Shown here piece after piece: positions 1,077 through 39,092 of a stretch of 64,000 nt of DNA. Position numbers and translations under genes: made by a program. This DNA comes from Pyrobaculum neutrophilum V24Sta. Its GTDB lineage: Archaea; Thermoproteota; Thermoprotei; Thermoproteales; Thermoproteaceae. The notes below the pieces were generated by a model. That model saw nothing but the letters and a program-made list of their open reading frames with translations. It made no database searches and was not told the origin of the DNA. Position 1 is the first letter of the stretch, and each line of letters starts with the position of its first letter. The DNA lies in the NCBI RefSeq assembly GCF_000019805.1, contig NC_010525.1, positions 186,001 through 250,000 on the forward strand, read 5' to 3'.

Positions 1077-2480
1077 TCAGAGCTTTATGCTTTCGAAGAT
1101 GTGTCTACGGTAGAACTTCTGGGTGATCTGCGGCCTGGCGTTGGTTAGCTCGTCCTCCGGCAGTATGGACATGACGTCCCACCCGATGTCCAGCGTCTCC
1201 TCGAAGGATCTCCTCTCGTAGTAGCCCTGCTTGATAAACCTCTGCTCGAAGGCGTCGGCGAAGCGGAGGTACCTCCTCTCTCTCCAGCCGAGGTTGCGCT
1301 CCCCAACTAGGGTGGCTAGGTTTCTCAGCTCCAGGGCCTTGGAGTAGGCGGATATGAGCGTGTTGGCCACGTCCTTGTGATCCTCCCTGGTCTTGCCCTC
1401 GCCGATGGCGTCCTTGGCTAGGCGGGAAAGCGACATGATGACGTCGAAGGGCGGGTAGATGCCCTTGCCCCACATGGAGCGGCTGAGGACAAGCTGGCCC
1501 TCGGTGATGTATCCCGTGAGGTCGGGGATTGGGTGGGTTATGTCGTCGTGGGGCATCGTGAGGATGGGGAACTGCGTCACCGAGCCCTTCTTGCCGCGGG
1601 CCTTGCCGGCACGCTCGTAGATCGTGGCCAGGTCGGTGTACATATAGCCTGGGTAGCCGCGTCTGCCCGGGAGCTCGCCTCTCCCCGAGGAGAGCTCCCT
1701 CAGCCCCTCGCAGTAGTTGGTCATGTCTGTGATGACCACCAGCACGTGGTAGCCCAGCTGCCAGGCGAGGTACTCGGCGATGGTTAAGCCGACGCGGGGC
1801 GCCAGGATACGCTCCGCCACGGGGTCGGAGGCGAGGTTCAGCACCGCCACGGCTCTCCTGAGGGCGCCGGTCTTTCTAAACTCGTCCATGAAGAAGATGG
1901 CCTCCTCCGTCTTGATGCCGACCCCCACGAAAACCACGGCGAAGCCCTCCTCTGACCCTCTCACGGTGGACTGCCTAACCACCTGGGCGGCCATGAGGTT
2001 GTGGGGTAGACCTGTGCCGGAGAATATCGGCAACTTCTGGCCCCTCACCAGGGTGTACAAGCCGTCGATGGCGGAGATGCCCGTCTCAATGGGCTCCTCC
2101 GGGTACTCCCTGGAGTAGGGGTTAAGCGGCTCGCCGTTTACGTCGCGGAAGTCCTCGGGCGGCGGAAGCGGCATGTGGTCCCTCGGCTGGCCCTTCCCGT
2201 CTAGAATCCTCCCGATGAGCTCCTCAGACACTGGGAGCTTCAGCGTTTTGCCGTAGAACCTCACCGTGGATCCCTTCGCCGGCAGGCCTAGGGTGCCCCC
2301 CAGCACCTGCGCCACCGCGTAGTCTGTGCCCACCTCGATCACCTGGACCCTCCTAGGCTCGCCGTCTGGCCCAACAACCTCGCCGATTTCGCCGTAGGCC
2401 ACGCCCCTCGTCCTCTCAATGACCAGGAGAGGGCCCTTCACCTCTTTTACGGTTGAGTAGGAAACTACGGGTGTTAGCAT
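1077..2480 (-). CDS. atpB: A-type ATP synthase subunit B
   Basis: The 467-residue non-catalytic B subunit of the membrane A1A0 ATP synthase, part of the A3B3 head. Family marks are the early strand '[19 protein letters not shown]', a degenerate nucleotide loop '[15 protein letters not shown]' in place of a Walker A, '[21 protein letters not shown]', and '[20 protein letters not shown]'. Length is normal for the family. The start at 2480 is chosen because a TATA at 2501-2507 is about 24 bp away; the longer open frame upstream runs through the promoter. No other ATPase subunit gene is adjacent. The gene shares its TATA with the divergent dehydrogenase gene. Confidence 0.97.
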
Positions 2481-2498
2481 GGGCCACTGTAAAAACAG

Positions 2499-2508
2499 AT
2501 TTATATAC
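2499..2508. promoter_or_regulatory. Symmetric TATA shared by atpB and the divergent dehydrogenase gene
   Basis: The only A/T-rich element between the two divergent starts is TTATATA at 2501-2507. Its centre (2504) is about 23 bp from both ATG 2480 (minus) and ATG 2526 (plus). Both genes would then be leaderless and would compete for a single TBP site. Confidence 0.7.
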
Positions 2509-2525
2509 ATTGGGGCGTGGGGGAC

Positions 2526-3380
2526 ATGAGAGTTGGCGTAGTGGGTCTGGGAATCATGGGGGCGCCCATGGCCATGCACCTCCACAAGGCCGGCCTCCTA
2601 GCGGCGGTCTACAACAGGACTAGGTCTAAGGCCGAGCCGTTCCAGAAACTCGGCGTATATGTGGCCGACTCGCCTGCCGACCTCGCCAGGAGGGTGGACG
2701 TGGCGATAATCATGGTGTCGGATGCGCCTGATGTTGAACAGGTGTTGTTTGGGCAGGGCGGGGTGGTGGAAGGCGCTAGGCCCGGCCTTGTCGTGGTGGA
2801 CATGTCGACGAACTCCCCCGATTGGGCGCGGAGGTTCGCCGAAAGGCTGGCGAAACACGGGATAAAGTTCCTCGACGCGCCGGTGACGGGCGGGCAGAAG
2901 GCGGCTGTGGAGGGCACCTTGACGATAATGGTCGGCGGAGACGAGGCCCTCTTCCGGCAGCTGGAGCCGGTATTTAAGGCATTTGGGAAAACGATAGTGT
3001 ACGCGGGGCCCGTGGGCTACGGCCAGGCTATGAAGCTGGTCAACCAGATCGTGATCGCGTTAAACACCGTGGCGATGGTGGAGGGGCTACGTCTCGCGAA
3101 AGCCCTTGGCCTAGACCTAGAGAAGGTGGCCCAGGTCCTGTCCAGCGGGTCGGCTAGATCCGGGTCGATAGAGCTTTACCTGCCGAAGCTCCTGCGGGGC
3201 GATATGTCTCCAGGCTTCAAGGCGGCCCATCTAAAGAAGGACCTGGCCTACGCCTTGGAGCTCGCCCACAGGATGAACCTCTTCGTGCCGGGCGCCTCCC
3301 TAGCCCTTGAGCTGTATAAAAAGATGGTGGAGAGGGGGCTGGGCGAGCTCGGCATACACGCGCTGGGAGAGATATACTAG
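2526..3380 (+). CDS. Beta-hydroxyacid dehydrogenase (3-hydroxyisobutyrate dehydrogenase family)
   Basis: A 284-residue NAD(P)-dependent dehydrogenase. The Rossmann glycine motif is '[10 protein letters not shown]' near the N-terminus. The substrate-binding signature '[16 protein letters not shown]' lies near residue 115 and the catalytic-lysine segment 'AMKLVNQ' near residue 165. Members oxidise 3-hydroxyisobutyrate, tartronate semialdehyde, or reduce succinic/glyoxylic semialdehydes; the substrate cannot be decided. The ATG at 2526 fits the shared TATA at 2501-2507 better than the in-frame GTG at 2517. Confidence 0.9.
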
Positions 3381-3634
3381 GCGGGGCTGTCCTCTTCTGT
3401 GGTGTGGGAAAAGTTCTGCGTTTTGTGCAGGCGGAGGGCTTAAACGTATCTGTGGGGGCGAGGGGGTAGCTCCATGAGGTGCATCAACCGAGCCTGTCCC
3501 GAACGTTGGCGGAGGAGGCCGTGCCGTTGGCCCCCGTGCCCAACGCCCCCGCGCTGGAGGCACCTCAGGCGCCGGTGAAGGCGCGGGCGAGGAGAAAGCC
3601 CCTAGAGCGGCCAGCGGCAATCAACAACGACCGC
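3381..3634. other. 254-bp gap with a possible small zinc-binding ORF
   Basis: A TATA-like 'gcttaaacg' at 3438-3446 is followed by a G-rich, SD-like 'gggggt' (3462-3467) and ATG 3474. That ATG opens 34 codons to 3578, starting MRCINRACPERW (C-x4-C). A second frame from GTG 3479 continues as an Ala/Pro-rich stretch with normal high GC at third positions into the next gene. Neither frame alone is convincing. This could be a frameshifted small gene or an RNA. Confidence 0.25.
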
Positions 3635-3907
3635 CTAGGGATGAACGGAGAGGCGGTAGACCCCCTCCTCCACCTTTTTAAAAACGTAGGTCCCGCCCTC
3701 GGTCCTCACGGCGATTTGCCTAGGCCAGCTTGACGCGTCCACCTCCACCCGGCTGAACCCGGCCGCCCTAAAGACCTCCTCCACGTCCCGTCTCGGCAGA
3801 TCTTCGGGTATCAACACGGCGTAGCTGTAGACCCCCGCCTTGATGAGCTTGGCGAGCTCCGCCCTGTCCTCCTCCTCGGTTATGTCGTAGAAGGCCCGGG
3901 GCTCCAT
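3635..3907 (-). CDS. Small conserved-looking hypothetical protein
   Basis: A 90-residue soluble alpha/beta protein, 'MEPRAFYDITEEEDRAE' to 'YVFKKVEEGVYRLSVHP'. It contains a helix-strand segment 'DVEEVFRAAGFSRVEVDASS'. Function is not recognised. The start at 3907 is supported by a TATA-like 'cctataaa' (minus strand) at about 3928-3935, inside the last codons of the upstream GNAT gene. The longer open frame overlapping GNAT is rejected. It is co-directional with GNAT with a 20-bp gap. Confidence 0.6.
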   Translation of the reverse strand: MEPRAFYDITEEEDRAELAKLIKAGVYSYAVLIPEDLPRRDVEEVFRAAGFSRVEVDASSWPRQIAVRTEGGTYVFKKVEEGVYRLSVHP

Positions 3908-3927
3908 ATGGGCGTAGACCCAGCCCT

Positions 3928-4614
3928 TTATAGGTCTATCGAATAGAGGAGGTGCGCCGCGTACCTCTCCCTGTAGCCCTCGGGGCTTAGGGAGGTGGCG
4001 TCGGCCGAGGGGTCGCCTTGGGCTTTGCCGAAGGAGAAGCGGCCGATGTACAGCGCCTCGCCGAGGCAAGGCCGCCCCCTACTGAGGAGATCCCAGGGGG
4101 TGAGGGCGGTACACACCCAGGGGTCGTCCGGCAGACATGCGTAGCCTCTGCTCCGGCCCAGCGCCTCTGAGACAGCCTCGTAGGCCTCGACGCCGGAGAG
4201 GCACCTGCCGTTGCCCCCGGCGGGCCTCCCGCCGTATATGTAGAAGCGCTCCCTAAACCCGATCTTCCTCACAAGACGGTGGCTCGGGGCGTTCCACTCG
4301 GCCACCAGGGCGGTGGCGACGGCCGCTCCCCTACGCCTCGCCTCGTCCAGTAGAAACCTGGTGATAGCCTCGCCGATTCCCCTCCCCCTGAGCTCCGGCC
4401 TTACCCTAAGGCCGTGGAGGTAGGCCGACTTCCCCACGGTCAATAGGGCGGCCACTGCGGCCACCCGGCCGCTCCAGAGGGCGACGTAGGCCCTCCCCTC
4501 CCTCACCCACCTCCCTATCACCTGGGGGATATAGTCGCCCCAGTCCCACGTGTCCATGGTGAAGGACACTATCTCGGGGATGTCCTCCTCCGAGGCGGGC
4601 CTAAAGGTGAGCAT
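3928..4614 (-). CDS. GNAT-family N-acetyltransferase with C-terminal extension
   Basis: A 228-residue protein. The N-terminal half is a GNAT domain: 'LTFRPASEEDIPEIVSF' as strand/helix 1, then acetyl-CoA pyrophosphate-binding motif A 'VRPELRGRGIGEAI' near residue 75, then 'NAPSHRLVRKIGFRE'. About 90 residues after the GNAT core are not typical and may bind substrate. The acceptor is unknown. The start at 4614 is supported by a minus-strand TATA overlapping the truA start codon; the M six codons upstream would lie too close to it. Confidence 0.85.
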   Translation of the reverse strand: MLTFRPASEEDIPEIVSFTMDTWDWGDYIPQVIGRWVREGRAYVALWSGRVAAVAALLTVGKSAYLHGLRVRPELRGRGIGEAITRFLLDEARRRGAAVATALVAEWNAPSHRLVRKIGFRERFYIYGGRPAGGNGRCLSGVEAYEAVSEALGRSRGYACLPDDPWVCTALTPWDLLSRGRPCLGEALYIGRFSFGKAQGDPSADATSLSPEGYRERYAAHLLYSIDL

Positions 4615-4641
4615 AAAAGCCGGTTTTTCCACCTCTATATG
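4612..4641. promoter_or_regulatory. Interlocked divergent leaderless promoters (GNAT / truA)
   Basis: The starts are only 24 bp apart. The TATA-like 'cataaaag' serving truA (4612-4619) contains the GNAT start codon. The 'catatag' (minus strand) serving GNAT (about 4635-4641) contains the truA ATG at 4639. Each gene's first codon therefore sits in the other gene's TBP site. Confidence 0.6.
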
Positions 4642-5406
4642 CCTTACCTATACCGCATCGCCTACGACGGCACCCTCTTCTACGGCTTCACGGGGCACCC
4701 GCGGTCGCTGGAGCCCCACCTGAGGCGCGCCCTTGGCGATGTGTTGGGCCGTGGGAGTAGGACGGACCCCGGGGTGTCGGCCGTGGGAAACGTGGTGATG
4801 ACGTCGGCGAAGGTGCAACCAGCCGCGGCCAACTCCAAGCTTCCGCGCGGCGTTTGGGTCTGGGCGGCGGCGGAGGTGCCGGAGGGGTTCAACCCCAGGA
4901 GGGCCAGGAGCAGACATTACCTCTACGTCGCCCCCCACTGGGGGGAGGACCTCGACTCTATGCGGGAGGCGGCGGAGCTGCTGGCTGGGACGCACGACTA
5001 TGCCTCCTTCGTCCAGAGGCGTGGCGAGCCGGCGTCCACGGTGACGACCATATTCAGCATAACGGTGGAGACCAGGGGCGACCTGGTGTTTCTACACTTC
5101 GTGGGGAGGGGCTTCAGAAACAAGATGATTAGGAAGCTGGCGTGGGCTATTCTCGCGGCCGGCAGAGGGGTCTTGAGGAAAAGGGACATCGCCGATCTGC
5201 TAGAGAGGCCCAAGCCGGGGGCCGTACCCAGCGCCCCCGCCGAAGGCCTAGTGCTCCTCGACATAGACTACGGCGTGGAGTTCCAAGTGGATTACCCATC
5301 GCTTAGGAAGGCCTACCGCTACTTCCTCTGGAGGTATAGATACGCCGCGGCCCACGCCGCGGTTTTCAAAGCCGCGGGGGAGGCTCTAGCCGCTTGGGAG
5401 GAGTAA
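4639..5406 (+). CDS. truA: tRNA pseudouridine synthase A
   Basis: A 255-residue TruA-family enzyme that isomerises uridines in the tRNA anticodon arm. The catalytic aspartate is D43 in 'SRTDPGVSA'. Downstream family blocks are 'HYLYVAP', 'GTHDYASFVQRRGEP' and 'FLHFVGRGFRNKMIRKL'. The enzyme acts on tRNA in the cytoplasm without cofactor. Length is normal for archaeal TruA. The TATA is about 22 bp upstream and overlaps the neighbouring start codon. Confidence 0.95.
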   Translation: MPYLYRIAYDGTLFYGFTGHPRSLEPHLRRALGDVLGRGSRTDPGVSAVGNVVMTSAKVQPAAANSKLPRGVWVWAAAEVPEGFNPRRARSRHYLYVAPHWGEDLDSMREAAELLAGTHDYASFVQRRGEPASTVTTIFSITVETRGDLVFLHFVGRGFRNKMIRKLAWAILAAGRGVLRKRDIADLLERPKPGAVPSAPAEGLVLLDIDYGVEFQVDYPSLRKAYRYFLWRYRYAAAHAAVFKAAGEALAAWEE

Positions 5407-5435
5407 GTCTTTAAATATGGATCGGGTATCTTACT

Positions 5436-6083
5436 ATGGAGCCCTACTGCGATTTCGACGCGGCGGCGGCCGCCATAGACAACATGTTGGGAGAGCTGAT
5501 AAGGGAGCACTTCGGCGATATGCCGCGGAGGGAGCTCGACACCATCAGGGAGTTCGTCTTCAGAGACTTCATGCACTACCTAGCCACGAGGGCGGGTATA
5601 TACTCGTGGAGGAGGTTCTCGGAGGCTAAGGCGCGGCAGAGGCTCTGCATATACGTGGAGAAGATGTGGGCGAGGCTGTGGGATGTAGCCTCCGAGTGGT
5701 TCGCCCTGTGGAAGATAAAGTGGAACCAGCGGGTTAGGCTGGTCTTCTCCGAGGAGGAGTTCAAGAGGGCTACCCAGTCGGTCAAGTGGTCCAGCCAGCT
5801 GGACAAGGCGCTGAAAAACATCGACGTTACGGAGCTTAAGCTCTTCGTCATATCGAATCTGGTTAGAAACGGCGAGGTGGCGGGGGTTGAGCAGATATCT
5901 GAATACCTCATCAGAGATGAGCTAAATGCCGTTGTGGAGAGGCACGGCCCCGAGAGGGCTGTGGAGATGTACAAGACGGGGGCTCTCACGGCTAGGTTGC
6001 TGGAGAGGATAAACTCCCTTAGGGCCAACACAGACCCGCTTCTGCTCCTCAAGGTAGACTTCGGCAGAACCCAGCTCCCCTAG
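5436..6083 (+). CDS. Hypothetical mostly helical protein
   Basis: A 215-residue soluble protein, rich in Glu/Arg/Trp/Phe and predicted to be largely helical. Examples are 'IREFVFRDFMHYLATRAGIY' and 'LDKALKNIDVTELKLFVISN'. No motif is recognised. It begins 23 bp after a clear TATA (tttaaatat, 5410-5418), so it has its own promoter despite following truA by 29 bp. It is convergent with the next gene, with a 4-bp gap. Confidence 0.75.
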   Translation: MEPYCDFDAAAAAIDNMLGELIREHFGDMPRRELDTIREFVFRDFMHYLATRAGIYSWRRFSEAKARQRLCIYVEKMWARLWDVASEWFALWKIKWNQRVRLVFSEEEFKRATQSVKWSSQLDKALKNIDVTELKLFVISNLVRNGEVAGVEQISEYLIRDELNAVVERHGPERAVEMYKTGALTARLLERINSLRANTDPLLLLKVDFGRTQLP

Positions 6084-6087
6084 GGCC

Positions 6088-6561
6088 TCACCTCACGTGG
6101 ATCTTCGTCTCCCTGGAGAGGTAGGCCGGCTCCCTAGGCGAAACCTCCTTTATAGAAATGCGTATCCACCTCCCCCCGGCGCCTTGGACGTAGCCCATGA
6201 AGTTTGTAAAGACGGGGACGCGGTACGCTATAAGCACGTTGACGAGCTCCGCCAGTTGCTCCACGTCTATCGGCTGGGCAACGCCGAGGGACACGGCGTG
6301 TGCTTCGAAGGCCCGGCTCAGCTTCTTGAGCAGAACCGTCCTGAAGCCCGCCACGGCCATGTATACGTCGATGGAGAGCACCACGCCTGCTTTTACGTCG
6401 TCGCGCACCTCCGCGATACGAGCGGAGGAGGCCCCGCTCTTGGTCTCAACCCTAATCCCGTCGCCTACCCGCAGCCCCAGGGCGGTGGCTAGATCCCGGC
6501 CTACCCACGCCTTGAACCCCGCCTCCTCTGAATAGCCGTACAGCCTAGCAACGGCGTACAT
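6088..6561 (-). CDS. Stand-alone VAT/Cdc48 N-domain-like (double-psi barrel) protein
   Basis: A 157-residue protein. The first 75 residues resemble the Cdc48/VAT N-terminal double-psi beta-barrel. They read 'VGRDLATALGLRVGDGIRVE' and then an A-R-I-A-EV strand, a connector and 'VVLSIDVYMAVAGF', like the 'mkkLGlkvGDvVei...iriDgy.R.nag' pattern of the family. The remainder is a small alpha/beta tail ending in basic strands. There is no AAA+ domain. It could be an adaptor or substrate-recognition module; the partner is unknown. It starts at ATG 6561 from an A/T element shared with dphB. Confidence 0.5.
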   Translation of the reverse strand: MYAVARLYGYSEEAGFKAWVGRDLATALGLRVGDGIRVETKSGASSARIAEVRDDVKAGVVLSIDVYMAVAGFRTVLLKKLSRAFEAHAVSLGVAQPIDVEQLAELVNVLIAYRVPVFTNFMGYVQGAGGRWIRISIKEVSPREPAYLSRETKIHVR

Positions 6562-6575
6562 CCACCGCGGCCACC

Positions 6576-6591
6576 TATTTATAATAAATAC
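6576..6591. promoter_or_regulatory. Symmetric A/T element shared by the VAT-N-like gene and dphB
   Basis: 'tatttataataaatac' is the only TATA candidate between divergent starts 6561 (minus) and 6603 (plus). Its centre is 20-23 bp from both. This is the same geometry as at 2499-2508. Confidence 0.65.
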
Positions 6592-6602
6592 TTTGCCCCC
6601 AT

Positions 6603-7364
6603 GTGTTCTACATAATCGGCGTTGGGCCAGCCCCGGGCTTTATAACCGAGAAGGCGGCGCAGATACTGCGCGAGGCAGACTGCGTATTCTACGAGGACTA
6701 CACCGGCCCCATAGACGTCGAGACCCTCCGCAGATACGCCAGGTCGCCGCCGACGCGGCTCACCAGGAGAGATCTGGAGGACGAGTCGGGGCGTAGAGTG
6801 CTGGAGTGCCTCAGCCGCGGAAAGACGGCGGTTCTCGCCACGGCCGGGGACCCCATGTTGGCCACGTCCCACGCCGCCTTGATCTCCATAGCTAGATCCA
6901 GGGGCTACAGCGTTGAGGTGGTGCCGGGGGTTTCGATAGTCTGCGCGGCCTTCTCGGCGAGTTGCCTATCTATATACAAGCTCGGCGGCGTGGCCACAGT
7001 CACCTATCCAAGGGGGGGAGTGTACTCGGCCAGGCCCTACGAGCTTGTCGAACAGAACCTGGCGAGGGGGCTCCACACCCTCCTACTCCTCGACGTTAGA
7101 GAAGACGGCGTTTTCATGCCGCCTAGAGACGCCGCCGAAATCATGCTGAAGTTGGAGGAGCGGGAGAAACGCGGCGTTTTCGACAAGGGGAGGCCGGTGG
7201 TCGTGGTGCCTAAGCTCGGCTGGGGCGGCAGACCCGCCTACCTGCCCCTCGGCGAATTGCTAGGTAGCGATCTGGAGGGGCCGGCTGTGTTTATCGTGCC
7301 AGGTGGGCTAAGCCCCGTGGAGAGGGAGTGCATTGAAGCGCTATCGGTTTTAAAAAGCAGGTAG
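6603..7364 (+). CDS. dphB: Diphthine synthase
   Basis: A 253-residue SAM-dependent tetrapyrrole-methylase-fold enzyme that methylates the aminocarboxypropyl-histidine of elongation factor 2 during diphthamide synthesis. Visible are the N-terminal 'YIIGVGPAPGFIT' loop, the 'ADCVFYEDYTGP' segment, the SAM-site motif 'GDPMLATSHAAL', and 'VPGVSIVCAAFSASCLSIYK', all typical of Dph5/DphB. The start is GTG 6603; the overlapping ATG at 6601 is out of frame. It is probably followed by two small co-directional genes, each with its own TATA. Confidence 0.93.
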   Translation: MFYIIGVGPAPGFITEKAAQILREADCVFYEDYTGPIDVETLRRYARSPPTRLTRRDLEDESGRRVLECLSRGKTAVLATAGDPMLATSHAALISIARSRGYSVEVVPGVSIVCAAFSASCLSIYKLGGVATVTYPRGGVYSARPYELVEQNLARGLHTLLLLDVREDGVFMPPRDAAEIMLKLEEREKRGVFDKGRPVVVVPKLGWGGRPAYLPLGELLGSDLEGPAVFIVPGGLSPVERECIEALSVLKSR

Positions 7365-7372
7365 GTAGAGAC

Positions 7373-7900
7373 GTGGGAGAGAGCGATGTGGTCCCGGTAT
7401 ACGCACAGGGCTTCTATGTCGTAAGCCCAGGGGTGGTCAACATGGTGATAATCTTCGACTACCTAGACAGGGGGCAGTACTACCACAAGCTCCTACGGAG
7501 GGGGGGAGAGGAGCTTTCTAGGGAGATTTCGACCGTCTGGGAAAACATGCAGAAGTTCATGGACGAAGAGGTGGTGCGGATCAACGGGGAGAGGGTTAGG
7601 CCGACGATAAGCGACGTCTACATCGGCCTCAGGGGCTCCCCCACCAGGCCCTACATCGTCTTCATAGGCTCCTTCCCAGCGCCGCTTAGAAGCGGCGAGA
7701 ACATCTACGAGAACTTCTACGACGAGGAAGTCGCCGAGTACGACTACGAGGCCGTCTGGATATTTCCAAAAAACGCCGAGGTTTTCGAGTGGCGCTTCGG
7801 CGGCGCCGTGGAGACCCCGGAGCCGAACATACTAAGGGTGGCCGTGGCGAAGGGGGTGGAGGTGGGCGGTTGGGAATATATAAAATTCAGAATACGCTGA
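7373..7900 (+). CDS. Hypothetical protein downstream of dphB
   Basis: A 175-residue soluble protein rich in Tyr/Glu/Val, for example 'VVNMVIIFDYLDRGQYYHK' and 'RPYIVFIGSFPAPLRSGENI'. It looks like an alpha/beta sandwich with no catalytic motif I recognise. GTG 7373 is 22 bp after 'gttttaaaaag' (7346-7356), which overlaps the dphB 3' end, so it can be transcribed independently and leaderless. Confidence 0.7.
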   Translation: MGESDVVPVYAQGFYVVSPGVVNMVIIFDYLDRGQYYHKLLRRGGEELSREISTVWENMQKFMDEEVVRINGERVRPTISDVYIGLRGSPTRPYIVFIGSFPAPLRSGENIYENFYDEEVAEYDYEAVWIFPKNAEVFEWRFGGAVETPEPNILRVAVAKGVEVGGWEYIKFRIR

Positions 7901-7941
7901 AAGCCGGAGGAACCTTTTTAAGACGCGGCCTCTCTACACCT

Positions 7942-8298
7942 GTGGAGGAGCTCACGAGGCTTCGCTACATGTGGGCGCACCTCACCTTCAGAAACAAGCC
8001 CGTGATAAAGAAGGCCAGGAGGGAGGAGGGGGATCCGCTGGAGGAGGTGCTGAAGCTGTGCCCAAGGCCTTACAGGATGCTCTGCTATATGGCCATGAAG
8101 GAGCTGAAGCTGAGCCTATCGGCCGTGGCTGAGGCGGGCCGAGATATCCCCACGGCCGCCGCTTTGGCCCTAGAGGACGCGACCTCGGGCAGGCCGGACC
8201 TCCCCCGCCTCCGGCGCTACTTGGCCACGGGGGACCCGGGGCCAGACGTGAGAGAGGTGATAGACAAGTGGAGGAGGGCAGCCCGCCAGATGTACTAG
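7942..8298 (+). CDS. Small helical hypothetical protein
   Basis: A 118-residue, Arg/Lys-rich helical protein with two Cys (KLCPRPYRMLCYMAMKEL). It ends 'VREVIDKWRRAARQMY'. No family is recognised. GTG 7942 lies about 24 bp after 'cctttttaag' (7913-7922), so the 50-residue upstream extension of the open frame, which overlaps the previous gene, is not used. It overlaps the convergent KaiC-like gene by 4 bp. Confidence 0.6.
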   Translation: MEELTRLRYMWAHLTFRNKPVIKKARREEGDPLEEVLKLCPRPYRMLCYMAMKELKLSLSAVAEAGRDIPTAAALALEDATSGRPDLPRLRRYLATGDPGPDVREVIDKWRRAARQMY

Positions 8299-9098
8299 GC
8301 CTCATCAAGCACCATCCCCCTCCCCGGCTCTATCTTAACCCTGTAGGCTCTCGCCGAGTGGGCCGTCATCCTCATCTTCTTGATTATAAGCCAGCGCCTG
8401 ATCTCCTTCGCCGTCTCCACGTCGTCCATCCACATGTGGATGACGCCGTCTGCTATATGCTCAAGGCCGAAGCCGTAGGCCTGTCTCGTCGTCGGCGCGT
8501 ACTGGCTGGTGAGCATAGCCGTCACGTTCTCCCTGTGTGTGGCGATCTTGAGCTGGTACGAGTACTTACGCGCCATCACCGGTTTATCCACCCAGAAGGC
8601 GGACATGGAGTCGATGACGAGGCGGACGTGGCGCTCGGGGGACCCCCTCTCCTTAGCCACGGCCAAGATCTCGTAGGCCTCGTTGATGGCCTCGATTAAG
8701 GTGTCTATGGAGAGGGCGGCGTAGCGCCGCACCTTGTCTGGGCTTTCCTCCCTGGCCTTCTCCGTCAGCTGGCGGGCCACCTTTAGAAGCCCAAAGATGT
8801 CGATGACGACGATCTCCGGAAGCTCCTCAGGCTCCTTCTTCCACGCTATGTTGTATACGGAGAACTGGGAGAAGTCCATCCCAAGCTGCCTCGCCTGCTC
8901 CATAACGTCCCTAAACTCCTGCTCTGTGGTTACATACACAACGGGATCGCCTGACCTCAGCCCGGCGTAGGCGAAGTGTATACAGAGTATAGACTTGCCC
9001 ACGCCAGGCTCGCCTGTGACCACGACCCAGGAGCCCTGGGGGACGCCGCCCTCCAGCGCCTTGTCTAAAACCTCGATGCCGGTGGGGATCCTCCTCAC
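8295..9098 (-). CDS. KaiC/RadA-like single-domain ATPase
   Basis: A 267-residue RecA-fold ATPase. It begins 'RIPTGIEVLDKALEGGVPQG', has Walker A 'GEPGVGKS' (residues 29-36), a TTEQE segment after strand 2, Walker B-like 'RLVIDSMSAFW', and 'LTSQYAPTTRQAYGFGLEHIADGVIHMW' typical of archaeal KaiC-domain proteins. The role may be signalling or recombination accessory; it is too short for RadA and lacks the HhH domain. It starts at GTG 9098, about 22 bp from a TATA shared with the divergent gene. Confidence 0.85.
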   Translation of the reverse strand: MRRIPTGIEVLDKALEGGVPQGSWVVVTGEPGVGKSILCIHFAYAGLRSGDPVVYVTTEQEFRDVMEQARQLGMDFSQFSVYNIAWKKEPEELPEIVVIDIFGLLKVARQLTEKAREESPDKVRRYAALSIDTLIEAINEAYEILAVAKERGSPERHVRLVIDSMSAFWVDKPVMARKYSYQLKIATHRENVTAMLTSQYAPTTRQAYGFGLEHIADGVIHMWMDDVETAKEIRRWLIIKKMRMTAHSARAYRVKIEPGRGMVLDEA

Positions 9099-9114
9099 GC
9101 CTCAGACGGCGTAG

Positions 9115-9125
9115 AGCTTAAAAAA
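9115..9125. promoter_or_regulatory. Symmetric TATA shared by KaiC-like and MTH1187-family genes
   Basis: 'gcttaaaaaa' (9115-9124) is the only TATA-like element between starts 9098 (minus) and 9143 (plus). It lies about 22 bp from each. This is a third case of one element serving two leaderless genes. Confidence 0.65.
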
Positions 9126-9142
9126 TGTGTCCATCTGGAGCC

Positions 9143-9445
9143 ATGGCTAAGATGGTGGTGAGCCTCTCGGTGGTGCCCCTGGGGACCGGCTCGCCCAGCG
9201 TGTCGGAGTACGTGAAAAAGGCCACCGCGGTCATTAGAGAGTCCGGGCTTAGGTATAGGACAGGCGCTGGGTTTACAGACGTCGAGTTGGACTCGTACCA
9301 GCAGCTCGCCGAGCTTCTGGAAAAGATGGAGAAGGCGCTCGCAGAGATGGGGGTCCAGAGGATACTATATACGATTAAGATAGATAGGAGGATGGACAAG
9401 GAGCTCTATATAGAACACAAGATAGCGAAGGCGGAAGGAATATAA
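9143..9445 (+). CDS. MTH1187-family thiamine-binding-like protein
   Basis: A 100-residue ferredoxin-fold protein of the MTH1187/YqgV family (DUF77). Marks are 'SLSVVPLGTGSPSVSEYVKKA', 'GLRYRTGAGFTDVE' and 'ILYTIKIDRRMDKE'. Family members bind thiamine-like ligands as small tetramers. ATG 9143 is chosen over the in-frame ATG 9125, which overlaps the TATA. A single-gene unit. Confidence 0.85.
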   Translation: MAKMVVSLSVVPLGTGSPSVSEYVKKATAVIRESGLRYRTGAGFTDVELDSYQQLAELLEKMEKALAEMGVQRILYTIKIDRRMDKELYIEHKIAKAEGI

Positions 9446-14959: not shown

Positions 14960-16107
14960 CTCCTCCGCCTGCCGGCGATGAGGTACTCCGCGGTGACGAT
15001 CCTAGACACGATGTAGAGTGCTACGGCCGCAAGCGCCCAGTCCGCCGTTAGCAATAGAAGCGCCTCGCCCCATCTGCCGAAGAGGGCGGCCAAGGCGATA
15101 TATAGGGGGTGTAGAAGGGGGTCCAGCTTAAGCCAATCAGTTGGGGCGAAAAACACCGCAACCGCGGGCGCTGCGAAGAAAAACACGGCGGTGGTTGCAA
15201 CGCTCTGCGCGGTTTTGATATCCTCGGCGCGGCTGGCCAAGGCGAAGGACACGGCCACGACGAAGATCGACATCGCCAGGATGGATAACGCCGAGAGGGC
15301 CAGCGCCCCCGGCGGTATAGACACATGTAGGCCGGGCCGAGGGAGCTCGGGCGGAGGCGCCCCTCCGACGAAGTTGGGCAGATTGGCCAAGTTGGCGAAG
15401 TAGACCCCGTAGCCGGCCAGGAAAACGGCGAACTGTATCAACATGAGGAGTATAGAGCTGACTAGCTTGGAGAGAACCAGCGCGCTCGGCGTAGCGGGTG
15501 TGGCGAGTATGAGCTCAAAAGTCCTCTTCTCCTTCTCCACGCCGACTGCTATGGCGGCGGTCGCCGCCACGAGCAGAGGCACCATCAAGGTGGCCACGAA
15601 GGAGACCATGTAGAGGCTCAGCAGGGCGCCGGCTTCGGCCTCCCCCAGCCACGCCCCGTCGAAGTACAGGCGGAGGGTGACGTTAACCAGCGCGGGTGGG
15701 ACGCCCGCCCTCTTCGCCAGCTCCTCCGCCGCGGTTCTCAAAACGGCTGGGGCGACCAGCGAGGGGAAGCCGCTGTATCTCCTGTACACCTCCAGCCTCG
15801 CTGGGAAGGTGAAGTTCCTTGGCACCACAACGACGTAGCTGTACTTCTCAAGCAACTCAGGCGTAAACTCGCCGTATACCACGCCTCCGAGCTCCCTCAG
15901 CTTCTCCACGTACAGACGCCCAAGCTCGTTTGTATCGTTCGCCACCACGGCGAACTTCTGCGCCGCCGCGGCTCCGCGGATGGAGGCCCCCATCAGGAGG
16001 CCCATGAAAACCAGGGCGGCGAAGCCCCCCACGAGGGAGAGGATGAAGTAGCGCGAGGCTAGTATCTCCCTTAAGTCCTTCACCACGAGTGCGGTCAAGA
16101 CGCCCAC
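14956..16107 (-). CDS. ABC-2 type permease (NatB-like)
   Basis: A 383-residue membrane subunit. It has one N-terminal TM (FILSLVGGFAALVFMGLL), a large extracytoplasmic domain of about 140 residues, then five or more TM helices beginning 'VSFVATLMVPLLVAATAAI'. The family motif 'GVEKEKRTFELILATPATP' precedes a helix, as in NatB/ABC-2 permeases. It starts at GTG 16107, 28 bp from the divergent gene, with its TATA candidate at about 16127-16133. Confidence 0.88.
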   Translation of the reverse strand: MGVLTALVVKDLREILASRYFILSLVGGFAALVFMGLLMGASIRGAAAAQKFAVVANDTNELGRLYVEKLRELGGVVYGEFTPELLEKYSYVVVVPRNFTFPARLEVYRRYSGFPSLVAPAVLRTAAEELAKRAGVPPALVNVTLRLYFDGAWLGEAEAGALLSLYMVSFVATLMVPLLVAATAAIAVGVEKEKRTFELILATPATPSALVLSKLVSSILLMLIQFAVFLAGYGVYFANLANLPNFVGGAPPPELPRPGLHVSIPPGALALSALSILAMSIFVVAVSFALASRAEDIKTAQSVATTAVFFFAAPAVAVFFAPTDWLKLDPLLHPLYIALAALFGRWGEALLLLTADWALAAVALYIVSRIVTAEYLIAGRRRR

Positions 16108-16108
16108 G

Positions 16109-16133
16109 TTTTTATAGAGGGTGGTTCATAAAT
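16109..16133. promoter_or_regulatory. Two closely spaced divergent TATA elements
   Basis: 'tttttatag' at 16109-16117 is about 23 bp before plus-strand GTG 16136. 'cataaat' at 16127-16133 is about 23 bp from minus-strand GTG 16107. The starts are 28 bp apart and the elements interlock. Confidence 0.55.
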
Positions 16134-16135
16134 CT

Positions 16136-17263
16136 GTGGCCTATCTCCTGACCTCGGCCGTACACGGCGCCGACTTCATCGCCGAGGTGGAGAGATACGT
16201 CGCAAAGTACATCTCCCTCAAAGACCCGGCGAGGCCTGAGCCGGAGAGGTTCCCCGTCATAATCCACGGCACCGGCGGGACAACCGCCCAGGCGCTGGAG
16301 CTCGTGGAGAGGGCTGGCGCACGCGGCGCCGTTCTAGTGGGCTTCGGCGAACACAACAGCTTCGCCAGCGCGCTACACGCCAAGGCCGAGCTGGAGGCCG
16401 CCGGCCGCACGGCCGTCGTCTACCACTGCCCCACCTACGCCGAGTGCGGCCCCGCTTTAGCCAAGGCGGCTAGGGTCTCTGCCGCCGCCTCCTCCCTCAT
16501 CGGCGCAAAGGCCGTGTTGATCGGTTCCAAGACCAAGCAGGCCGACTTGGTTAGCGAGAGGTTCGGATGGTCGGTGGAGGTCGTGCCTCTTGCCGACTTC
16601 GAATCGACCGTCGCGAACTCGGAGCCCGACAGCGAAGCCCTCTCTTTGTTCGGAGATGAGAGGGTGGCGAAGGTCGCCTCTGCCCTCCGCAGGCTGGCAG
16701 CGGGGAGCCACCTCGTCGCCATACAGTGCTTCCCCTTCCTTATGAAGGCCGGATACACCCCATGTCCAGCGCTCGCGTTGTTAAACGCCAGGGGCCTCAC
16801 GGCGGCGTGCGAGGGGGACCTCTCGGCTGGCTTCGCCATGTTGTTGCTGAGGAGGCTCGCCGGGGGGAGCAGCTGGATAGCCAACGTTGTGGAGAGCCGC
16901 GGCGAGATGGCCACCTTCGCCCACTGCACGGTCTCGCTGGACCTAGTGGAGCGGTGGTGGTCCATGCCCCACTTCGAGTCGGGCCTGCCCTATGGAATCG
17001 CCGGGGAGCTGAGGAGAGGCGTCTACACGGCCGTGTCTATCTCGCCGAGGTTTGAAAAGGCGGCTGTGGGCCGGGTATACGTCGAGCGGAGCGGCAACTA
17101 CCTACAGAGCGCATGCCGCACCCAAGCCACGGTTAGGTTCGGGAGGCCGGTCCGCTTAGAGGAGGAGGCGCCCGCGAACCACCACGTCTTTGCCCCTGGC
17201 GACGTGGCCGCCGAGGCCGCAGCCGTCTTAAAGCTCCTCTCCTTCTCAACCGTTATATACTAA
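16136..17263 (+). CDS. L-fucose/arabinose-isomerase-like protein
   Basis: A 375-residue sugar-isomerase-fold protein. The N-terminal half has a Rossmann-like 'VIIHGTGGTTAQALELVERA' and 'AVLVGFGEHNSFASALHAKA'. The C-terminal half has metal-site-like 'CFPFLMKAGYTPCPALALLN', 'ACEGDLSAGFAMLLL' and 'MATFAHCTVSLDLVERW', the E..D..H arrangement of the FucI/AraA C-terminal domain. It is shorter than true FucI, so the substrate is unclear. GTG 16136 fits the TATA at 16109-16117. The next gene was ancestrally a hydroxyacid dehydrogenase, now decayed. Confidence 0.7.
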   Translation: MAYLLTSAVHGADFIAEVERYVAKYISLKDPARPEPERFPVIIHGTGGTTAQALELVERAGARGAVLVGFGEHNSFASALHAKAELEAAGRTAVVYHCPTYAECGPALAKAARVSAAASSLIGAKAVLIGSKTKQADLVSERFGWSVEVVPLADFESTVANSEPDSEALSLFGDERVAKVASALRRLAAGSHLVAIQCFPFLMKAGYTPCPALALLNARGLTAACEGDLSAGFAMLLLRRLAGGSSWIANVVESRGEMATFAHCTVSLDLVERWWSMPHFESGLPYGIAGELRRGVYTAVSISPRFEKAAVGRVYVERSGNYLQSACRTQATVRFGRPVRLEEEAPANHHVFAPGDVAAEAAAVLKLLSFSTVIY

Positions 17264-38689: not shown

Positions 38690-38908
38690 CTACACCTCTG
38701 CCACCGCCAAGACGCCCTCCTCAGACCTCGCCGAGAGGTACATGGTATACAGCACCTCCGCTATGTGGGGACCCGCCGCCCTCGCCACCGCCTCGAACAG
38801 CCGCTCCTCGTCAAGCTCCTCCAGGTCGTAGCCAGCCCTCCTCAGGCGATAGATAAGAAAACACGAGATAGTGGGATCCAGCGATTGTATAAACCTCTTC
38901 AACGACAT
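38690..38908 (-). CDS. Small helical hypothetical protein
   Basis: A 72-residue protein, 'MSLKRFIQSLDPTISCFLIY' then 'DLEELDEERLFEAVARAAG', helical and acidic. Function is not recognised. The start at 38908 is 26 bp from 'tatatttaaa' (minus strand; 38931-38940), which rules out the longer frame. Confidence 0.65.
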   Translation of the reverse strand: MSLKRFIQSLDPTISCFLIYRLRRAGYDLEELDEERLFEAVARAAGPHIAEVLYTMYLSARSEEGVLAVAEV

Positions 38909-38942
38909 AGATATACAACTCAGAACATTTTTTAAATATATC

Positions 38943-39092
38943 GTGCAGGTTGAACCGTTTGTCCCTGTTGCGCCTAGGGATCTCCTCCTCGCCTTCATGG
39001 GTGGCCAAGCTAGCTCGGGCGTGGGGTCACCGGGCCGGGCGGCCCTCCTTGAGCCCCAGGGCATGCCTTTCGATGCTTACGACGGCTACTAA
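38943..39092 (+). CDS. Possible 49-residue protein
   Basis: GTG 38943 opens 'VQVEPFVPVAPRDLLLAFMG', then Gly/Ser-rich, ending 'EPQGMPFDAYDGY'. It has good codon composition and a TATA-like 'agatatacaa' (38909-38918) about 29 bp upstream, interlocked with the divergent gene's promoter. It could be a true small protein or a C-terminal remnant. Confidence 0.3.
   Translation: MQVEPFVPVAPRDLLLAFMGGQASSGVGSPGRAALLEPQGMPFDAYDGY

Follow-up and report, generated by a model that had tools for sequence, protein, structure and literature searches.

Crossed TATA boxes overlapping the opposing start codons at a divergent GNAT-truA junction in Pyrobaculum

A close described counterpart of the arrangement reported here is a bidirectional promoter of Pyrococcus furiosus, in which, according to RNA-seq and in vitro transcription, one TATA box serves both directions from start sites 49–50 bp apart, TBP being able to bind in either direction (PMC6640164). 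It resembles our locus, the junction between a GNAT-family acetyltransferase gene and a truA-type gene, in giving two opposite transcripts from one short stretch. However, the P. furiosus promoter as described has a single TATA and its second transcript is mostly antisense RNA, whereas GNAT-truA has two crossed TATA boxes and both of its transcripts are predicted mRNAs (PMC6640164). Bidirectional bacterial promoters also have preferred start-site spacings, but these are attributed to the symmetry of the sigma-70 −10 and −35 elements, not to TATA and TBP, and, unlike at GNAT-truA, start codons are not promoter elements in the systems described there (Warman and colleagues, PMC12825309). The oppositely oriented gvpA and gvpD promoters of haloarchaea are, like ours, archaeal divergent promoters with shared regulatory bases. 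In the account given of them, however, the TATA-BRE units stand back to back 35 bp apart, only the activator sites overlap, and the gvpA transcript has a 20-nt leader (PMC4390858). Divergent promoters of S. solfataricus are described as often tightly spaced (PMC8448881).

Shared-TATA archaeal promoters are thus known. For the crossed kind, i.e., TATA boxes that share bases with opposing start codons, we found no description in the open-access literature searched, which is weak evidence of absence, as most subscription papers lie outside that literature. The geometry proposed below depends on leaderless transcription, which was reportedly described for Pyrobaculum aerophilum by Slupska et al. 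in 2001. A review places this species, from the same genus as ours, among the archaea with much leaderless mRNA; this reported abundance is the basis of the geometry, and the passages concerned are silent on divergent spacing or interlocked boxes (PMC7531240).

The window, i.e., the whole stretch of DNA analysed, is 64,000 nucleotides long and covers positions 186001–250000 of a single 1,769,823-base contig. The junction and its parts lie at the following positions of the window:

3928..4614, minus strand: gene for a GNAT-family acetyltransferase (Pfam PF00583, 2.5e-14), start ATG at 4614, from the coding-only caller
4639..5406, plus strand: gene for a truA-type tRNA pseudouridine synthase (Pfam PF01416, 3.5e-19), start ATG at 4639, start aligned in relatives
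4615..4638, no strand: intergenic gap of 24 bp (gaps of 24–26 bp in nine Pyrobaculum genomes)
4612..4619, plus strand: truA TATA 8-mer CATAAAAG at −27 to −20, 5.3 bits, its bases 1–3 being the complement of the GNAT start codon
4634..4641, minus strand: GNAT TATA 8-mer CATATAGA at −27 to −20, 4.0 bits, its bases 1–3 being the complement of the truA start codon

The name truA is taken from a first-pass annotation of this DNA, and the Pfam assignment is to the TruA-type pseudouridine synthases. That annotation put the two starts 24 bp apart; its coordinates are correct, and a gene caller which scores coding potential only and ignores upstream signals also chooses both starts (4614 on the minus strand, 4639 on the plus strand). 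A longer GNAT open reading frame, from a GTG at 4632, is present as well. This GTG is an unlikely start because a TAA lies directly 5' of the GNAT ATG in two relatives (G003 and G009) and because the open frame has 229 codons against a 228-residue match. The annotation further held that each TATA contains the other gene's ATG, and the best-scoring 8-mers do begin on the two ATG complements. For both genes the TATA centre falls about 23–24 bases before the gene's own start codon, as in a leaderless TATA-dependent archaeal promoter, and each 8-mer covers the opposing start codon, so core elements and start sites overlap in the manner of overlapping divergent promoters. The two box centres are 22 bp apart and crossed, so this is not one shared TATA midway between the genes. 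When an A-rich BRE was sought by eye at about −32 to −30, A was found at −31 and −30 on the GNAT side and not on the truA side.

We sampled 824 kb of the own genome (the window and 38 other stretches) and 400 kb each from three other Pyrobaculum and two sister-genus genomes, giving six sampled genomes (G000, G001, G002, G006, G014 and G016). Gene prediction in the samples relied on a coding model blind to upstream sequence, and all gene starts are our own calls. For training the TATA matrix we took the divergent pairs separated by 100 bp or more (252 pairs, 504 upstream regions); 306 of these regions entered the refined matrix, and the commonest 8-mer start among the matrix boxes is −27 (108/306). 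The proportion scoring at least 4 bits is 56.7% for independent upstreams, 13.3% for control windows lying further upstream and 2.6% for coding windows. Across the 504 regions, A/T content is 64–77% at −26 to −20, A is raised at −32 to −30 (0.35–0.44), where an A-rich BRE is expected, and 80% have C or T at −1. Such a profile is predicted for transcripts that begin with the start codon and agrees with the review of archaeal leaderless mRNA (PMC7531240). Within its own genome, the GNAT-truA junction has weak to modest boxes (5.3 and 4.0 bits).

The boxes could be due to chance, in which case the start codons would provide CAT, which alone fits the first three matrix places, and A/T-rich intergenic sequence would provide the rest. 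We consider this highly improbable, since two boxes of at least 4 bits appear in only 0.36% of 20,000 shuffles of the gap with the flanks, including both ATGs, held fixed (and in 0.02% of random gaps of genome composition), and since the arrangement recurs in nine genomes.

Our preferred explanation, which we consider probable, is that GNAT-truA consists of two divergent leaderless TATA-dependent promoters crossed at the smallest spacing that their geometry allows. Each TATA 8-mer would sit about 27 to 20 bases upstream of its own start codon, so with a gap of 24 bp the start codon, read as CAT on the other strand, would form the first three bases of the opposing TATA. CAT fits these first three places, the third of which is T in 95% of matrix boxes, and other codons rarely could. 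It is this fit that would allow the start codon to be shared, setting a floor of 27 − 3 = 24 bp. Since either TATA coincides with the start of the opposing gene, TBP and TFB assembled at one promoter would, given their footprint sizes, occupy the transcription start of the other gene, and polymerases for the two directions should exclude each other. The junction should thus accommodate a single initiation complex at any one time.

The junction is conserved within the genus. A family search of 19 genomes found truA in 18 and GNAT (E ≤ 1e-20) in 14. Of 11 Pyrobaculum genomes, nine have the divergent junction with both ATGs and a gap of 24–26 bp (24 in the own genome; 25 in G003, G004 and G009; 26 in G001, G002, G005, G006 and G008), and the other two (G007 and G010) gave no GNAT match. 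The nine junctions are related, with G003/G009 and G006/G008 nearly identical, so they amount to seven distinct sequences. All 18 of their boxes overlap the opposing ATG, 16 starting with the full CAT and two with its AT, which bears out the first-pass statement that coding and core-promoter signals overlap here. It named strict conservation of both ATGs and both TATA cores in relatives as evidence that would support it. The ATGs are kept in the nine genomes; the TATA cores are not strictly conserved, those on the truA side varying among CATAAAAG, CATTAAAA, ATTATAAA and CATTTAAG, and the cores are conserved only in kind and place.

Some of these loci differ in other ways. In G008, a draft genome, the GNAT gene is divided between contigs, and in G004 only GNAT codons 1–28 adjoin truA, the remainder lying about 6.5 kb away. 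Because the G004 gene is interrupted, its GNAT promoter may be functionless. The interruption, after about codon 28, spans roughly 6.5 kb (locus L148, G004:C1:1154500-1164500, about 1563–8074), and the insert encodes a TnpB-like protein (Cas12f1-like_TNB, Pfam 2.1e-09) and carries three copies of a 53-nt sequence. The truA loci of G007 and G010, the Pyrobaculum genomes without GNAT, are L023 and L024; in L023, truA is divergent to a 90-aa ORF about 100 bp away, and a protein resembling the product of that ORF was seen by eye downstream of GNAT in another locus (L041).

Outside Pyrobaculum, GNAT occurs in five of six genomes of a sister genus (g2), and truA is absent inside all five of those GNAT loci. 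Of these five GNAT genes, three lack a TATA upstream of the start, that of G011 carries one at −27 (7.3 bits), and the start of the G015 gene could not be placed.

Nine truA genes without a divergent GNAT, two from Pyrobaculum and seven from other genera of the family, provide a natural control. A GNAT-direction TATA lies over the truA ATG in 9/9 genomes with divergent GNAT (4.0 to 9.5 bits) and over the truA start in 0/9 genes without it (−3.4 to −21.5 bits), a contrast of limited weight because the nine genomes with the pair are related. The run just upstream of the truA ATG resembles a TATA solely in genomes with a divergent GNAT, so the GNAT promoter does shape that run. This contrast also bears on a different reading of the junction, in which one or both genes have a leader or a longer transcript from elsewhere and the A/T-rich runs are a translation signal or chance. 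The weak GNAT box in the own genome and the three sister-genus GNAT genes without a TATA would suit that reading, but the run is absent from all nine truA genes without divergent GNAT and is therefore not a translation signal of truA. Furthermore, truA still has a TATA of its own in the two Pyrobaculum genomes lacking GNAT (6.1 bits at −29 and 10.1 bits at −25), and the G011 GNAT gene has its TATA at −27. We therefore think a leader unlikely and infer that both transcripts are leaderless.

The same control limits what can be said of the start codons themselves. In the two Pyrobaculum genomes without GNAT, truA also starts with ATG, so its ATG needs no promoter explanation, and we dropped conservation of that codon as evidence. 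The first-pass claim that each start is fixed by the opposing promoter thus survives only in part: the GNAT promoter shapes the run upstream of truA (9/9 versus 0/9), but the truA ATG persists where GNAT is missing. We also dropped the idea that the GNAT BRE exerts selection on truA codon 2 (CCT), as CCT is common at that place: of 48 second codons for proline in the own sample, 12 are CCT. The simplest history would be that the leaderless truA promoter came first, that the GNAT start codon then came to lie on the truA TATA, and that a GNAT TATA evolved over the truA start.

Divergent gaps in the family have a characteristic distribution. Among 425 called divergent pairs in the six samples, none has a gap of 18–23 bp, 23 have 24–34 bp, eight have 35–40 bp, 40 have 41–48 bp and two have 49–53 bp. 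We compared these counts with a null obtained by smoothing the same data (207 pairs with gaps of 0–130 bp, bandwidth 10, 20,000 draws). The 41–48 bp class is enriched (40 vs 20.4 expected, P 0.0001) and the 18–23 bp (0 vs 6.4, P 0.0013) and 49–53 bp (2 vs 12.2, P 0.0004) classes are depleted, with the bins chosen post hoc and orthologous pairs possibly recurring between samples. At 24–34 bp there is no significant excess over the smooth curve (23 vs 18.5, P 0.16), so a separate statistical mode at that spacing was dropped. The own genome alone has 20 pairs at 41–48 bp against 9.0 expected (P 0.0004) and none at 18–23 bp against 2.9 (P 0.05). Only the 41–48 bp mode has an outside expectation, because at gaps of 44–48 bp a pair of 8-mers with starts between −26 and −28 will coincide. 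The start-site spacing of 49–50 bp reported from P. furiosus matches this class (PMC6640164).

The pattern depends to some extent on how starts are called. A second caller (450 pairs) gives 0, 31, 10, 45 and 5 pairs in the same bins, and longest-ORF starts give 0, 26, 8, 21 and 6, with 80 negative gaps. Longest-ORF starts weaken the pattern, with 21 instead of 40 pairs at 41–48 bp and 32 instead of 12 at 0–17 bp. No divergent gap of 18–23 bp occurs under any of the three start-calling methods, whereas the control orientations are populated at that spacing (convergent 5/455, codirectional 88/1539). Partly overlapping, out-of-register TATA boxes may be a partial cause of the avoidance of 49–53 bp.

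In the 41–48 bp class, two boxes are found in 38 of 40 pairs, never more than 4 bp apart (38/38), and in effect they are one shared TATA. No close arrangement is commoner in the sample, and one could suppose that a single bidirectional TATA drives GNAT and truA too. With a gap of 24 bp, however, a central box would be only about 12 bp from both starts, and the actual boxes are crossed with their centres 22 bp apart, so we judge a single TATA very unlikely at this junction. A member of the shared class in the window is:

9098..9143, no strand: divergent pair from the class with a shared TATA, gap 44 bp (gap 43–45 bp in 7 of 10 loci)

Its remaining loci have a gap of 31 bp (G010), a gap of 416 bp and, in one case, no partner. 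For the pair at 6561/6603 (gap 41 bp), orthologue gaps are 41–45 bp in six of 10 genomes and 35, 53, 165 and 172 bp in the other four (gaps derived by hand from coordinates, with missing first residues restored in three genomes). The window pairs 6561/6603, 9098/9143 and 51675/51720 all have gaps of 41–44 bp, and one TATA apparently serves both genes in each.

Crossed boxes characterise the 24–34 bp class, where two boxes are present in 13 of 23 pairs (0.59 expected by shuffling) and are crossed by 10 to 22 bp. Overlap with a start codon is rarer, occurring on six of 35 box-bearing sides and in five of the 23 pairs, and all six overlapped codons are ATG. Reciprocal overlap is seen in GNAT-truA only (1/23), so it is not a general device; the own sample has two further pairs with a 24-bp gap, each lacking a TATA on one side. 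Boxes that come close to a start codon tend to face ATG rather than GTG, but this is no more than a trend: at gaps of 24–27 bp, boxes are present on 7/9 sides facing ATG and 2/7 facing GTG (P 0.07), and at 28–34 bp box presence does not differ (15/18 vs 11/12).

The first-pass annotation named two other loci in the window as similar interlocks:

16107..16136, no strand: crossed TATA pair, gap 28 bp, boxes of 12.2 and 7.5 bits lying off the GTG starts
38908..38943, no strand: TATA for the minus-strand gene only (11.6 bits; plus side −4.4 bits), no interlock

Neither comparison holds. The pair at 16107/16136 has two good TATA boxes, neither overlapping a start codon, and both starts are GTG. At 38908/38943, the minus-strand gene has its TATA, and the plus-strand ORF (a putative gene of 49 codons, below the caller's minimum) has none. 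We therefore rejected the first as a case of start-codon overlap because of its box positions, and the second as an example of any kind because the plus ORF lacks a TATA. Among 13 loci read for 16107/16136, the gap is 28–29 bp in four including the own genome and 281 bp in one, and five have no partner; three (L197–L199) were set aside as partial or paralogous, of which L198 gave a gap of 37 bp.

What the overlap is for is a separate question from how it is built. It may be a by-product of compaction, i.e., two ordinary leaderless promoters brought as close as possible, with no regulatory meaning and with any exclusion simply tolerated. We lean slightly towards this view, and plain compaction without regulatory use stands at about an even chance. 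The pair lies at one extreme of a range of spacings, the family has many shared-TATA and crossed pairs, and this GNAT has no known functional connection with truA. Nine genomes retain a junction of 24–26 bp, which may seem to speak for a use, although promoter constraint alone would also give that. Compaction departs from the explanation by two crossed leaderless promoters only in denying that exclusion is put to use.

A broader proposal, which we offer as speculative and rather doubtful, is that the spacing of leaderless divergent genes in Thermoproteaceae is quantised by TBP geometry. Gaps of 18–23 bp would be forbidden, those of 24–34 bp would be crossed and mutually exclusive, those of 41–48 bp would have one shared TATA, and those of 49–53 bp would be avoided. 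At the 24-bp floor the start codon would lie within the opposing TATA, a change from ATG to GTG would weaken the neighbour, and GNAT-truA would be a built-in either/or pair.

If our reading of the junction is correct, the start codon of one gene doubles as part of the core promoter of the neighbouring gene, and coding and regulatory sequence are coupled in an unusually direct way. This would predict unchangeable start codons and a minimum spacing of divergent genes in compact leaderless genomes, and the spacing pattern would give gene-start annotation a testable physical rule. The family would also supply naturally occurring promoter pairs of the shared, crossed and independent kinds with which to test how archaeal initiation complexes compete.
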